A DNA stretch of 47,968 nucleotides from a virus. The stretch lies in IMG/VR virus record IMGVR_UViG_3300025703_000009, positions 1-47,968 of that record; one strand, written 5' to 3'. Below the pieces are notes generated by a model. The model ran no database searches. It was not told the origin of the DNA and was given only the letters and a program-made list of their open reading frames with translations. Positions 488 through 41,647 of the stretch are shown here, one piece after another. Both the position numbers and the translations under genes were made by a program. Numbering within the stretch: the stretch's first letter is position 1; the number at the start of each line of letters is the position of its first letter.

Positions 488-1278
488 TTGAGTACACCGA
501 AGACGAATTTAATCAGGTGGTAGCCCAGAAGGATAATGCCTACTGGGAACGTAACCAGCTAGTCGCGGCGCTTAGTAAGCTCTGGCCGGCGCACCTGGCC
601 AAGCATCCCAAGGAAGACGAGAGCTGGGATGATGACTGGCGCACCATTGTCGTGATTTACATCGAGGCCCAAGACGCCGGCGGAAGCTACCAGCGCAATA
701 ATAGTCCTGGCCGTTCTATCGTCATGCTTCATAATCGGCCGTTCTATCAGCTAACTTGGCACCTCCATGATACTGACGTGGAGCTGTTCGATCACCTAAC
801 CTACGAGACTATTTTGAGCGATGAACAGATGAATTTAAGGGGTCAAGTATCTAATAATAATTGGAGTAATAGCGAGCCTTTCGTCTGGGACGGTCATAGT
901 ACCGAAGAAAAATACCGAAGACTCCGATCCCTGGTTGACGGAGCTGTTGTTACCTACCCCAATATAATTAGTAATGCAATCCAAAAAGCAATCGCCAGCG
1001 GAAAAGAGCTGGGCCAGAAATTTCTCCGGCGAATTGTTGCTCAAGAGCTGGATGGTCTTAGCCTAGCCACCTATGAGATTGACGGAGTTTTTGATGCAGC
1101 GCTTCAAGAAAGGCGTGGATATCCAAAGGGCGCAAATAGTCGCAAGGTAGTCGAAGAGTTGGTGGTAGCTGCTGTTAAGTATCACCGAGATCAGATACAA
1201 AATACCGGTGCCGAAGAAGATGGTATGGCCCGAGATACCATGGCCGCCAATGGCGATTCGCGCGTGAGAATGTTCTAA
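484..1278 (+). CDS. hypothetical protein, 264 aa
   Basis: An ATG follows a purine-rich stretch (ccaggagaatat) and overlaps the upstream stop. The protein is mixed alpha/beta and soluble, with a Trp- and Asp-rich N-terminal part (WDDDWRTIVVIYIEAQDAGG) and a helical Lys/Glu-rich C-terminal half. No family is recognised and there are no membrane segments. Position suggests a member of the early operon. Its base composition is less GC-rich in the middle than its neighbours. Confidence 0.75.
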   Translation: MIEYTEDEFNQVVAQKDNAYWERNQLVAALSKLWPAHLAKHPKEDESWDDDWRTIVVIYIEAQDAGGSYQRNNSPGRSIVMLHNRPFYQLTWHLHDTDVELFDHLTYETILSDEQMNLRGQVSNNNWSNSEPFVWDGHSTEEKYRRLRSLVDGAVVTYPNIISNAIQKAIASGKELGQKFLRRIVAQELDGLSLATYEIDGVFDAALQERRGYPKGANSRKVVEELVVAAVKYHRDQIQNTGAEEDGMARDTMAANGDSRVRMF

Positions 1279-1427
1279 TGACCAAACGTACTAGCTGGCT
1301 AGTATCTATTTTCCTGGTACTAGCCGGGCTGACCTTCCTAGACTGGCTGATTTTCGTAATCGGCTGGCTATGGATGATAGTCAACTTCACCCGAAGCAAC
1401 TGGGTTAGAAGGTGGTGGAATGGCTGA
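1278..1427 (+). CDS. small membrane protein, 49 aa
   Basis: The ATG shares its A with the preceding TAA (TAATG), and the frame overlaps the following gene by 8 bases; such coupling favours a real gene. The product is almost wholly hydrophobic, with two closely spaced segments (WLVSIFLVLAGLTFLDWL and FVIGWLWMIV) and a basic, Trp-rich tail (RSNWVRRWWNG). It is probably an inner-membrane protein with unknown role; it could be a host-takeover or superinfection peptide. Confidence 0.6.
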   Translation: MTKRTSWLVSIFLVLAGLTFLDWLIFVIGWLWMIVNFTRSNWVRRWWNG

Positions 1428-1893
1428 CAGCCGTACCTGGCCGCCGGCCGAACTGCTGACTTATATCAATAAGCTCCGGCAGTTAATCCTGAGAGACAAA
1501 CAGCTCTACGGGCAGTTTAAGGTTGACTTGAAAGCCTATCCCGAATTGTGGGGTGTAGTGGGTAGGCTCCTGAAAGCCCGGGCGCGGTATTACCGCGGCG
1601 AGATCGTCCGGGCCAAGCAGGACACCAAGCGCTACGCCCTGGGCGAGGATCCGCGCGAACCGACCAAGCACGGCGAAATGATTTGTAGCTGGGGAGACCG
1701 GTATCTTGAAGATTTGCCGGAGCAACTTAAATCGCTGGAACAACACTGGGCCGAAAGCTCCGGCGCCCACGGCCGTAACAACCGGACCATCATAGCAACC
1801 CAGCTCTGGGAAGGAGATGAGCTACTGGTCGGGATCACCAAAAATAGTATGCAAACGGTCATCAAAGACCTCGAGAGGATTACCTATGGATAA
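1420..1893 (+). CDS. hypothetical protein, 157 aa
   Basis: The start lies within the end of the membrane-peptide gene, preceded by GAAGGTGG. The product is helical and charged, with repeated Leu/Lys/Arg segments (LLTYINKLRQLILRDKQLYGQF; KARARYYRGEIVRAKQ) that could form a coiled coil. No catalytic motif is seen. The end overlaps the next start by 8 bases, typical of this early operon. Confidence 0.75.
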   Translation: MADSRTWPPAELLTYINKLRQLILRDKQLYGQFKVDLKAYPELWGVVGRLLKARARYYRGEIVRAKQDTKRYALGEDPREPTKHGEMICSWGDRYLEDLPEQLKSLEQHWAESSGAHGRNNRTIIATQLWEGDELLVGITKNSMQTVIKDLERITYG

Positions 1894-2044
1894 AATATCA
1901 GAGGCCGGCTATAAACTTGCAGACGTACCGGCGGTGAAGTGCTTTAACTGTGATAAGCCTATCGGGGAATTAGAGTATCGCGAGGTAAAAATGCTTGCGA
2001 GGTTTGGCCAGATGCTATTTGAGCATGTGGAGTGTCCGGCATGA
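1886..2044 (+). CDS. small zinc-ribbon-like protein, 52 aa
   Basis: The internal ATG at 1886 is chosen because GAGAGG precedes it and it gives a compact protein; an upstream alternative would lie entirely inside the previous gene. Two Cys pairs, CFNC and HVEC, could hold one zinc ion. The stop TGA overlaps the helicase ATG (ATGA). Function unknown. Confidence 0.6.
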   Translation: MDKISEAGYKLADVPAVKCFNCDKPIGELEYREVKMLARFGQMLFEHVECPA

Positions 2045-3033
2045 GCGAAAAATCAGAATTTAGGATGCTGGAAAACTGGGAGCCGGAGAAGAAAGAACGG
2101 CTGTTACTGCATCTGCTGGACGAAATGCCGCCGGAAGCGCTCAGAGCAGCCCGTAAGAAGCGCACGGAGCGTGTTCCGATCCAAGACTACTTCAAGGAAG
2201 CCAAAGAGATTCACCGCATGGCCGGCCAGGTCCAGGGACTCTCTACGCACATCAAGAACATTGACGACCTGACACTGGGTATGACCGGCGGGGAGCTGAT
2301 CGTCATGTCCGGGCCAACCAGCGCCGGCAAGACGCAGCTTACCACCATGATCGCCTACAACGTGGCCGCGCACGGCGATAAGGTCCTGTTCGTCACCATG
2401 GAAATGACCAAGGCCCAGATGACCGACCGCTTTATGAGTGCCGGCGGAACTGACCTATCGGAACTGAGCCACGGGATTATCGAGTACCAGAAAGAGTCCG
2501 ATCTGGCGGCGCTGGATATTCCCTACCTGGTAGGCGATGCCGTGAGAGACGGAACCAAGCTGATCGTCATCGACCACCTTCACTACTTCGGCTCTGAGGA
2601 CGACAGCAACCAGGCCCAGGCGTTAGGCCGGATCGTCAAAGACTTCAAGCAAGCCGCCGTGGCCAACAACGTGCCCATCATTCTGATCTGCCATATCCGT
2701 AAGCTGTCATCGGAGGGCAAGAAGCCTACCGCCAACGACCTCCGCGACAGCTCCCTTATCGGGCAACACGCCGACCAGATCATCATGGTTTGGCGCGATA
2801 TCCGGCCCAGCGCGCAGGATGCTACCGTAGTCGAAGTGACTAACTGGAAAAACCGTTTAAGAGGCTTACACGCCGGAAAGAGAAGGAGGACGTTCTATGC
2901 AGTCGGAGCCCGACTTAGAGAAGAAAGACCAAAACAAACAGATCAAACAAGTATGTCTATTTTACCGGAAGACGGTGAAGGGGCGGAAATATCCGATCTG
3001 GGTGAGGAGGAGGGTCTCGATATCCCTTTCTAA
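2041..3033 (+). CDS. DnaB-type replicative helicase (RecA-fold ATPase)
   Basis: The 330-aa protein has the order of a DnaB C-terminal domain: Walker A GPTSAGKT (about 91-98), FVTMEM corresponding to the DnaB FSLEM segment carrying the catalytic Glu, Walker B LIVIDHL (about 173-179), a sensor segment ILICHIRKL, and DLRDSSLIGQHADQIIMVWRD, equivalent to the DnaB DLRESGxIEQDAD...RD block. The DnaB-type N-terminal domain is reduced to about 60 residues and there is no primase domain. ATG 2041 is preferred over GTG 2032: GGAG lies 8 bases upstream and it forms an ATGA overlap. It should unwind the fork 5' to 3' as a hexamer. Confidence 0.88.
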   Translation: MSEKSEFRMLENWEPEKKERLLLHLLDEMPPEALRAARKKRTERVPIQDYFKEAKEIHRMAGQVQGLSTHIKNIDDLTLGMTGGELIVMSGPTSAGKTQLTTMIAYNVAAHGDKVLFVTMEMTKAQMTDRFMSAGGTDLSELSHGIIEYQKESDLAALDIPYLVGDAVRDGTKLIVIDHLHYFGSEDDSNQAQALGRIVKDFKQAAVANNVPIILICHIRKLSSEGKKPTANDLRDSSLIGQHADQIIMVWRDIRPSAQDATVVEVTNWKNRLRGLHAGKRRRTFYAVGARLREERPKQTDQTSMSILPEDGEGAEISDLGEEEGLDIPF

Positions 3034-3046
3034 CTACAATATCCTG

Positions 3047-3172
3047 ATGGTTCGGAAAATCTTTTTCCCCGATACCTTTGAAATAGACATCGGGGACATG
3101 AAGATACCGGTCAAACAGATTGACCTAAATCCCCCGCCGAAACAAACGCAAAACTCCCTGTTAAATAGTTGA
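3047..3172 (+). CDS. possible 41-aa protein after the helicase
   Basis: A short frame from ATG 3047 follows the helicase stop and ends just before the promoter at 3169. The product starts MVRKIFFPDTFEIDIGD and ends in a Pro/Gln-rich tail. No good Shine-Dalgarno is adjacent; the nearest GAGGAGG is over 35 bases away. It could be translated by coupling or be spurious. Confidence 0.35.
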   Translation: MVRKIFFPDTFEIDIGDMKIPVKQIDLNPPPKQTQNSLLNS

Positions 3173-3197
3173 CTTTTAGGAACGCAGCTAGTAGAAT
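3169..3197 (+). promoter_or_regulatory. sigma70 promoter
   Basis: TTGACT (3169-3174), a 17-base spacer and TAGAAT (3192-3197) predict transcription from about 3204. It sits at the end of a tight gene series, directly before the structured leader at 3204-3485, so it would drive that RNA and the nuclease/SSB/RecA genes. Confidence 0.65.
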
Positions 3198-3203
3198 GTA
3201 GCG

Positions 3204-3485
3204 TAACCCATAGCGGGACGAACTTTAAAAAATAATAGTGTTGCTTAACATATCCTCAATATGGCGTTGGTAGATAGCCGTAAGGCGTGAACGTGGCGTG
3301 TACAGATAGCAAATGAAGCGGTTTTCGGCCGACCTCCTAGCTAACCGGGCCATGTGTATTGAGGATAGCTGACCAGTGAAGCCGGTTCAGTTCCCTCTGA
3401 CCGGCCGCTCCTGAAAGGTCCATAGCTGTATACAATCCGATCACTATAAAAGGGTTTCCCGGGGAATAGTGGCCCCTTTGGGACC
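3204..3485 (+). ncRNA. structured leader or ncRNA of unknown class
   Basis: This 280-base gene-free stretch lies between a good promoter and the gene at 3526. Paired segments: TATCCTCAATA (3251-3261) with TATTGAGGATA (3357-3367), 11 of 11; nested inside, TGGC/GCCA and GTTGGTAG/CTAGCTAAC with one bulge; a GCC-GTAA-GGC mini-hairpin with a GNRA loop. A second domain closes AGCTGACC with GGTCcatAGCT around a CCGGTTCAG/CTGACCGG hairpin. A last hairpin, GGT/CCC/GGGG with CCCC/GGG/ACC (3453-3485), precedes the Shine-Dalgarno. No known riboswitch or ribozyme core was recognised; it could be cis-acting or an independent RNA. Confidence 0.6.
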
Positions 3486-3525
3486 GGTTATGGATCTTTC
3501 AGGCAACATTATTGAAAGGAGAAAT

Positions 3526-3717
3526 ATGGAAGAAAAGTTCCAAGGACCAGACGAAGCTTCATTGGCCCGGATGACACCGGCCACCATTGAAGCCCTGCTC
3601 GAAACGCTGAGAGATCAGCGGGCTGAAAAGGTCAAGCAAATTGACGTAGAAATCCGCTTTTATGAGGAAGAACTTATAAAACGGAAAGGACCGCAACGTG
3701 CCGCGCCCGGAAGCTGA
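3526..3717 (+). CDS. small acidic/helical protein, 63 aa
   Basis: The start is the ATG at 3526, 7 bases after AAAGGAG; a longer in-frame version from 3469 would begin inside the structured leader. Residues 20-55 form a charged helix (EALLETLRDQRAEKVKQIDVEIRFYEEELIKRK), a likely coiled coil. It overlaps the nuclease start by 20 bases, suggesting coupling. No family recognised. Confidence 0.7.
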   Translation: MEEKFQGPDEASLARMTPATIEALLETLRDQRAEKVKQIDVEIRFYEEELIKRKGPQRAAPGS

Positions 3718-5007: not shown

Positions 5008-5581
5008 TGTAATTTCGGAAGGTAAATATAAAATCGAGACGGTTGGCCCGGTTAAAACCGGCACGTCTAAAAAGACTGGCAAAGCCTACAAGACATTCGA
5101 CCTTCAATTCGAGGGTGATCCTCAGTGGTACAACTGTTTTTGGACACGTCCGGAAGACCCGAAAATCGGCCAAGAGCTGGATGGCAAGAAAGAATTTAAC
5201 AAGGACTTCGATAGCCACCAGTTCAACATGGGTTTTGCTGGCAACAAGGCTAACTGGAACCCGGCTGGCGCCAACGCGACCGTGTTTGCGGCCGCTGTGG
5301 CCGTTGTGAACGGTTTTCTGGGGCTGGACGGGGCGCATTTGGATAAGTGGCAAAAGGAGCGCAAGGAAGGCCAGACGGCTATCGCACACTACCTCGAAAC
5401 AGTGACCTCAGTCGCGGATGATATCAAGCAGCGGGTAGCCAAAATGGGCGGTGACGTTCAGACTGCGGCCAAGACCGCGGCAGCTCCACCTAAAGGCGGC
5501 GACCCAGGCCCGGTCAGCCCCGGCGAAGAAGACTGGCCCGATAAAGACGGCGAAGAAGAAGTCGATCTGGGGGGGATGTAA
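4994..5581 (+). CDS. ssb: single-stranded DNA-binding protein (OB-fold type)
   Basis: ATG 4994 lies 7 bases after GAGGAG; an in-frame GTG at 4991 is the alternative. Residues 1-110 are beta-rich with aromatics (KAYKTFDLQFEGDPQWYNCFW) as in OB folds. A Gly/Pro/Ala linker leads to a strongly acidic tail (EEDWPDKDGEEEVDLGG), a hallmark of SSB proteins that recruit partners through the C-terminus. The next to last residues differ from the bacterial DDDIPF tip. Neighbouring nuclease, helicase and RecA-like genes fit. Similarity to a specific phage SSB family was not recognised, so the call rests on architecture and context. Confidence 0.7.
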   Translation: MPNIDVISEGKYKIETVGPVKTGTSKKTGKAYKTFDLQFEGDPQWYNCFWTRPEDPKIGQELDGKKEFNKDFDSHQFNMGFAGNKANWNPAGANATVFAAAVAVVNGFLGLDGAHLDKWQKERKEGQTAIAHYLETVTSVADDIKQRVAKMGGDVQTAAKTAAAPPKGGDPGPVSPGEEDWPDKDGEEEVDLGGM

Positions 5582-7112: not shown

Positions 7113-7665
7113 CCGGAAGATCCTCACTGATACCTTGGCGCTAGTTAAACGCTTCGAGAAACAGGCGCATAACGAATGGACCGGGAAGTGGGTGTTGGAG
7201 TTTTTCGAGACCCTCTGTAACTTCCTGCCGCTGTCACCGATTACCGATGACCCGGCGGAGTGGGAAGCCTACGAAGATACCCATAAGAACGTGACTACCG
7301 GGGAGGCCGAAGTTACTAAGCGCTGGCAAAACAAGCGCGCACCGTCGATTGTTTCGATGGATGGCGGCAAAACCTTTGTTGACCTCAAGACCAAGAAAGA
7401 AGGTAAGTCGGTCGATCATATCGAGCAGGAGAAAGAGTGGGCCGCGGACCGGGCCAAGCGTGACGCTGAGAGAAAAGCCAAGGCTAATCCTGGCCAAGTC
7501 CAGGCTCCGAACGTGCTGGCCCAGCCGCCAGTTGATACTTCGGTTCCGGCCGGTGAAGAAACTGATTCAAAACAAGTGTGGGCATCAGGTAAAAAAGTTG
7601 CTGCCGAATTTGCAAATTCTCCTGGTACAAAAAAAATTGAAAAGTCAGAAGAAGATAGTAAATAA
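7033..7665 (+). CDS. conserved phage protein of unknown function, 210 aa
   Basis: The segment LCNFLPLSPITDDPAEWE...RWQNKRAPSIVSMDGGKTFVDL resembles a widespread but uncharacterised phage family with PLTPLTGxxxEW and QNKR blocks (recognised by memory of the motif). The C-terminal 80 residues are Lys/Glu/Pro-rich and probably disordered. It sits directly before the RecA-like gene, 2 bases apart. Confidence 0.75.
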   Translation: MGKTLYEHATAELKRLGLHLEEESPDSRKILTDTLALVKRFEKQAHNEWTGKWVLEFFETLCNFLPLSPITDDPAEWEAYEDTHKNVTTGEAEVTKRWQNKRAPSIVSMDGGKTFVDLKTKKEGKSVDHIEQEKEWAADRAKRDAERKAKANPGQVQAPNVLAQPPVDTSVPAGEETDSKQVWASGKKVAAEFANSPGTKKIEKSEEDSK

Positions 7666-40088: not shown

Positions 40089-40196
40089 GGCGGCGATGGT
40101 GGGATTCGAACCCACGTCCACCAAGCTGTTTAAGTAACCGAATAATGCTTGGTGGTGAATCGGTGTCTGCCATAAGTCCGCTTTGGCTACATCGCC
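40089..40196 (-). ncRNA. tRNA/tmRNA-like RNA domain (non-canonical)
   Basis: Minus strand: acceptor GGCGATG (40196-40190) pairs with CATCGCC (40098-40092), and a canonical T-arm GTGGG-TTCGAAT-CCCAC precedes the latter. A D-arm-like GCCA/TGGC hairpin with GCGG loop is present. There is no normal anticodon arm. Instead a 9-bp stem CCACCAAGC/GCTTGGTGG closes a 20-base loop and is joined to the T-arm by only AC, as P2 meets the T-arm in tmRNA (GGAC + T-arm). The 3' end reads GCCT, not CCA. No tag frame is seen. A truncated tmRNA-like or viral tRNA-like element is proposed. Confidence 0.6.
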
Positions 40197-41593: not shown

Positions 41594-41647
41594 GGACGGG
41601 TAAAGCTATTAAGCTTTATTACATTAACAATTAAGTCAGGGGGACAG

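Follow-up and report, generated by a model that had tools for sequence, protein, structure and literature searches.

An unclassified RNA fold, real and under selection, is the untranslated leader of an early replication/recombination operon in the phage genome analyzed here, a 47,968-base virus record from IMG/VR that we refer to in its entirety as the window. That the leader stands above chance follows from its conserved position and architecture and from compensated pairing in relatives. These results support the original prediction of a structured RNA of unknown class: the element is structured, has no Rfam family, and occurs at the same place in three related phages, two of which (L162 and L168) show compensated pairing. 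The choice left by that prediction, between an independent RNA and a control element, leans with the boxA-like element described below towards control of transcription elongation. The earlier observations were real, but they had missed the boxA-like element, the outer helix at the ribosome site, and the related phages in which the site is empty.

The leader and its predicted fold

The gene order in the window is a DnaB-type helicase gene (2032–3033), a small ORF, the promoter, the leader, a gene for a 63-aa protein, a nuclease gene and, further on, RecA (Table 1). The promoter that had been proposed to start the untranslated segment was found, and from it transcription is expected to start near 3204. 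The small ORF is perhaps the counterpart of an ORF in the related phage L028, a suggestion that draws mainly on its position. The ribosome site of the 63-aa gene lies at ~3514–3521. The downstream genes had been described as a nuclease, SSB and RecA-like operon; of these, RecA was recovered through Pfam (RecA family, E 4e-48) and the nuclease through a weak match to a PHROG exonuclease, whereas for SSB there was no family match. No intrinsic terminator was found between leader and operon in the window, L028, L162, or L168.

Table 1. Features of the leader region, in window coordinates
Feature	Position	Strand	Remarks
Small ORF	2897–3172	+	Overlaps helicase end, upstream of promoter; 27% identity to L028 ORF at same place
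Sigma-70-type promoter TTGACT-17-TAGAAT	3169–3197	+	-35 TTGACT 3169–3174; -10 TAGAAT 3192–3197; 17-base spacer
Structured untranslated leader RNA, whole element	3204–3513	+	~310 bases; start as expected from the promoter
Small hairpin CCC-AUAGC-GGG	3207–3217	+	Directly before boxA-like element; too short to weigh alone
boxA-like element CGAACUUUAAAAAAU	3219–3233	+	2 mismatches to relatives' consensus
Outer helix, 5' strand	3234–3245	+	Predicted fold
Domain A	3251–3367	+	11-bp stem, 3251–3261 with 3357–3367
Middle hairpin (second hairpin of the original prediction)	3380–3405	+	Predicted fold
Domain B, long bulged hairpin	3410–3503	+	Stem 3410–3426 with 3486–3503; predicted fold
Outer helix, 3' strand	3502–3513	+	Adjoins ribosome site; predicted fold
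63-aa protein, first gene after leader	3526–3717	+	30% identity to L028 homologue

The helices described earlier, namely the 11-bp stem, a GNRA mini-hairpin, a second domain, and a final bulged hairpin, were all present where they had been placed. The apex of domain A, AUGGCGUUGGUAGAUAGC, occupies 3261–3278 and the GNRA hairpin, GCC-GUAA-GGC, 3277–3286; two near-equal folds of this domain are predicted, at -39.1 and -37.5 kcal/mol. The location given for the element (3198–3485) was right, but its extent was not, as a 12-bp outer helix that closes both domains and ends at the ribosome site carries it to 3513.

The window leader folded better than 100 of 100 dinucleotide shuffles, with a z of about -3.7 (-3.6 to -3.9). 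Other stretches of the window also fold well: in a coarse scan with 25 shuffles each, the 309-base stretches from 3401 and 1201 had z values of -5.1 and -3.7, respectively. The first of these good folders (3401–3709, + strand) shares sequence with domain B and with the beginning of the 63-aa gene, and the other is 1201–1509 (+ strand). The fold signal is thus strong, yet not unique within the window, and is moderate taken alone.

A coding region was rejected as an explanation, since no ORF of at least 50 aa lies within ~3200–3465 on either strand and L028 has no long frame at the corresponding position; a conserved coding frame had been named beforehand as evidence that would speak against a structured RNA. 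A search of Rfam 15 gave no match to the window leader at the gathering threshold or at E 10, in agreement with the earlier statement that no ribozyme or riboswitch could be recognized. The leaders of L028, L162, and L168 had no match at gathering and only sub-threshold, chance-like matches at E 10, and among known riboswitch or thermometer families in Rfam none reached threshold. Elsewhere in the window, 40091–40196 (- strand) matched the Rfam tRNA family with 38 bits. The acceptor, D- and T-arms are intact there, an overlong segment with a possible 9-bp CCACCAAGC/GCUUGGUGG helix replaces the anticodon arm, and ARAGORN calls no tRNA; from these features it may be a degenerate, interrupted or tRNA-like RNA.

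Relatives with and without the leader

A terminase search led to the L028 phage (48 kb; contig also present as L092, L169, and L219), which has the same gene order and a helicase and RecA ~40% identical to those of the window. L162, L168, and L166 were found by a scan with a helicase alignment. In L028, L162, and L168, a structured leader follows the helicase gene and small ORF and precedes a homologue of the 63-aa protein; alignable homologues of this protein follow the leader site in these three phages and in L166. Each of the three leaders is preceded by a promoter, TTGAC(A/T)-17-TA(A/T)GAT, spans an insert of ~230–410 bases, and contains two long-stem domains, the second of which ends just before the ribosome site. 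Their fold z values were -8.7 (L028), -9.2 (L162), and -11.2 (L168). Loops and apical parts differ greatly between the phages. In the L028 phage, a second domain A-type hairpin was seen at L004 6474–6580 (+ strand), with a stem of AUACCGAUUAAGCGUA with UACGCUUAAUUGUUAU and UGGCGCCGGUAGCG just inside.

Other searches yielded little. When 50,697 phage records were searched with the leader and nuclease, at the nucleotide level and by tblastn, nothing convincing emerged, and a 30-nt match to MW202615 was dismissed (E 0.7, inside a gene). Scans for relatives with single window proteins failed with the nuclease and the helicase, and with RecA they returned two distant loci; genome-contig scans gave distant helicases only. 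A match in L037 proved to be merely the ribosome site. Scanning for TGGCGTTGGTRGNNAGC returned at least 120 stretches, which, besides the L028 phage, were judged to be chance from stem scores and sequence, not individually, and scanning for GAACNTTAACAATTNNATNTNA returned the three phages already known plus five others, the five being judged chance from their surroundings.

The leaders of L162 and L168 align well. Across 54 pairs in their main helices, 108 of 108 cells pair, and 18 of the 54 pairs are changed on both sides, compared with 26–46% pairing and 0–2 both-side changes when the partner strand was slid as a control. Because the structure was read from those same sequences, the high paired percentage is partly built in, and it is the both-side changes that are informative. 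In the structure that RNAalifold itself proposed for L162 and L168, 34 of 100 pairs were compensated. The compensation evidence comes from this one sequence pair, of which the window is not a member. A four-sequence MAFFT alignment (A8) was visibly misaligned and was therefore used neither for the pair counts nor for a covariance model.

Some related phages lack the leader. The helicase, the small ORFs, and a nuclease-like gene are all retained in L166, as is a perfect TTGACA-17-TATAAT promoter, but the leader there has only some 20 bases and holds no RNA domains and no boxA. In L161, L167, and L171, a promoter-like sequence, read by eye, stands close before the next gene, and these phages probably have a promoter but no RNA at the leader site. 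Homologues without the helices, which had been named as potential counterevidence, are thus absent among the phages that carry the insert but do occur among those that do not. At this site, the RNA and boxA thus occur together or not at all; the module is optional, and the operon does not generally depend on it. In the L166 phage, an exact CGAACATTAACAATT occurs in another short leader (L272 1437–1472, + strand), with a GC-rich hairpin-like stretch upstream of it and a ribosome site downstream.

The boxA-like element

A consensus, GAACWUUAACAAUU, is shared by L028, L162, and L168 beside the long-stem domains, with two copies in L162 and in L168, one of the L168 copies being GCACUUUAACAAUU. This consensus was built without the window sequence. 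The window leader nonetheless carries GAACUUUAAAAAAU at 3220, a 12/14 match equaled by 1 of 2,000 shuffles, and the only other window match with two mismatches is at 41619. All four leaders carry the element beside their long-stem domains, whereas a check of 13 other helicase loci, within 1.3 kb, found it at none of them.

The reference for comparison was TGCTCTTTAACAATT, the rrn boxA of E. coli together with its 3' flank, whose presence was confirmed in 5,375 of 5,426 genomes (median copy number, 7). Measured against this 14-mer, which may not be the reference appropriate to the host, the phage elements have one (L168), two (L028), three (L162), and four (window) mismatches, and shuffles did as well in 0/1,000, 2/1,000, 21/1,000, and 76/1,000 cases, respectively. 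Positions C4 and T6 of boxA are kept in all four phages; mutating both together abolishes boxA function in suhB (PMC5725501). Patescibacteria served as a test group because of a distant helicase match in such a genome. Their 16S leaders (30 compared) hold variants such as CAGAACTTTGACAATT and ATGAACATTAACATTT, some of them one or two mismatches from the phage element; 5/30 leaders had at most two mismatches versus 0/30 on the opposite strand, in the one phylum compared.

The overall layout is promoter, boxA, long-stem domain, (boxA), long-stem domain, and ribosome site, which resembles a small-scale rRNA leader. Each long-stem domain of L162 and L168 is preceded by a boxA-like element; L028 has one only between the domains and none before the first. 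Of the long helix that rrn-type leaders have after boxA, L162 and L168 carry a compensated counterpart; for L028 and the window such a helix is predicted. Its spacing from boxA is shorter in the phage leaders than the 18–19 bases of E. coli. Fold prediction pairs either the 3' part of boxA or the bases right after it with sequence at the ribosome site or immediately upstream of it.

Possible modes of action

The reading to which we give most weight, while holding it tentatively, is by analogy with known systems that of a Nus-recruiting antitermination leader, nut- or put-like in action and a member of neither family. In rRNA operons, boxA binds NusB/NusE and polymerase resists Rho on untranslated RNA; a strand of the long leader-trailer helix comes after boxA, and a second such set precedes 23S rRNA (PMC10250234). 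With ~300 untranslated bases, the phage leader would be exposed to Rho. Its boxA, in the nascent RNA, would bind host NusB/NusE (S10) with other Nus factors as in rRNA operons, and the resulting complex would make RNA polymerase termination-resistant across the leader and then the long early operon. Like HK022 put RNA, the stems may make contact with polymerase; alternatively, they may bring boxA near the ribosome site, with the large variable domains standing in place of a boxB hairpin. The shared position in four phages, the fold scores, the compensated pairs, the better-folding sense strand, the boxA-like element of all four leaders with its resemblance to the E. coli boxA and to 16S leaders, the order of elements as in rrn leaders, the functional boxA of another 5' UTR (PMC5725501), and the lack of an intrinsic terminator before the operon all favor antitermination. 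Against it stand the single sequence pair behind the compensation, the non-significant alignment of the window and L028 RNAs, the four of 14 positions at which the window departs from the E. coli boxA, the boxA placement in L028, the shorter spacing, and the relatives without a leader.

In its action, the leader would come closest to nut, put, and rrn leaders, without belonging to any of them. It shares with rRNA operons (boxB-boxA-boxC and leader-trailer helices) a promoter, a boxA-like element, and a long helix around a folded domain, and L162 and L168 repeat the set as is done before 16S and 23S rRNA (PMC10250234). The phage domains, however, are ~70–230 bases long with no rRNA inside, the boxA-helix spacing is shorter, and a protein operon follows directly. 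Lambdoid nut sites (boxA and boxB, with N protein) likewise have a boxA-like element just downstream of an early replication/recombination promoter, but the phage leader lacks the 15-base boxB hairpin, the bases after its boxA form strands of the long helix, its stems are very large, and a shallow search identified no N protein. The HK022 put RNA is ~70 nt long, with two stem-loops just downstream of an early promoter, and contacts polymerase at the beta' zinc-binding domain (PMC9378689); the window leader also has two stems in a folded RNA just downstream of an early promoter but is ~310 bases long, folds differently, and has a boxA-like element. In suhB, as here, boxA stands apart from rRNA, in a protein gene's 5' UTR; there it is functional and represses, at six bases from the ribosome site (PMC5725501), whereas the phage boxA lies, linearly, almost 300 bases upstream of it. 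Finally, GOLLD, ROOL, and OLE are also large folded RNAs, some of them in phages; the leader is smaller, is placed at the head of an operon, and has no Rfam match.

The same leader possibly also yields processed RNAs. An alternative that we regard as unlikely makes this its main role: RNase III-like cuts would release one or two independently acting RNAs from the head of the operon, and boxA would merely shield the untranslated RNA from Rho, as it does rRNA. Branched domains are indeed enclosed by long near-perfect stems, and in L162 and L168 a boxA stands before each of them, in the boxA-stem order seen for 16S and 23S rRNA (PMC10250234); a UCCRUGGUGGACC stretch in domain B differs at a single base between these two phages. 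The great variation of loops and apical parts would be odd for a trans-acting RNA, however, and neither a terminator nor a second promoter was consistently found in the window, L028, L162, and L168. The UCCRUGGUGGACC stretch lies in an apical hairpin of domain B (L162 ~5200–5220 and L168 ~7190–7210, + strand), differs in its conservation from its surroundings, and is a candidate contact site. To the idea of a new phage RNA class built like a miniature rRNA operon, with boxA before RNase III-type stems, one or two folded RNAs released to act in early infection, and the whole forming an optional module seated between a promoter and the first gene behind it, we give still less credence.

It is improbable that the leader, by folding over or beside the ribosome site, acts in cis on translation of the 63-aa protein and later genes in response to a protein, for example an operon product, or another signal. 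In all four phages, either the outer helix or domain B reaches right up to the ribosome site, and the 63-aa gene and its position are conserved; but in L162, L168, and the window most of the ribosome site lies outside helices, known riboswitch and thermometer families all stay below threshold, and boxA would be left unexplained.

The window RNA itself is likely homologous to the other leaders, judging from its position, two-domain layout, domain A apex, and boxA-like element. Just inside the domain A stem, the window and L028 share AUGGCGUUGGU..G..AGC, with CUAAC..GCC on the opposite side, and an apex similar to that of L028 is allowed in window domain A within 1.6 kcal/mol of the minimum. We consider homology likely rather than proven because the local alignment of the window and L028 RNAs was not significant, 58 of 1,000 shuffles being as good. 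That the window holds instead an unrelated, moderately folding spacer sharing only its position with the real RNAs is very doubtful. It shares little sequence with them, its z is moderate, and related phages do without a leader, but it has a boxA-like element found independently in relatives, the L028 domain A apex motif, and two long-stem domains in the same order, and it beat all shuffles.

The sense strand folded better than the antisense strand in all four phages, which favors an RNA over a DNA hairpin; L028 showed a large gap (-87 versus -54 kcal/mol), L162 and L168 a small one. Together with G-U pairs conserved on the sense strand and the placement of promoter and boxA, this makes least probable of all a DNA-level element that is transcribed only incidentally, such as an origin of replication or a single-strand initiation site, even though the leader adjoins a DnaB-type helicase gene and has long inverted repeats of a kind able to form hairpins in DNA.

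The best-known cases of phage antitermination are those of lambdoid phages, which infect enterobacteria. If the antitermination reading is true, recruitment of the host rRNA antitermination machinery would be more widespread and would extend to phages of uncultured hosts, and the boxA variant could help tie uncultured phages to their hosts. The leader adds a structured RNA that had not been listed, and its absence from L166 offers a natural comparison of phages with and without it.
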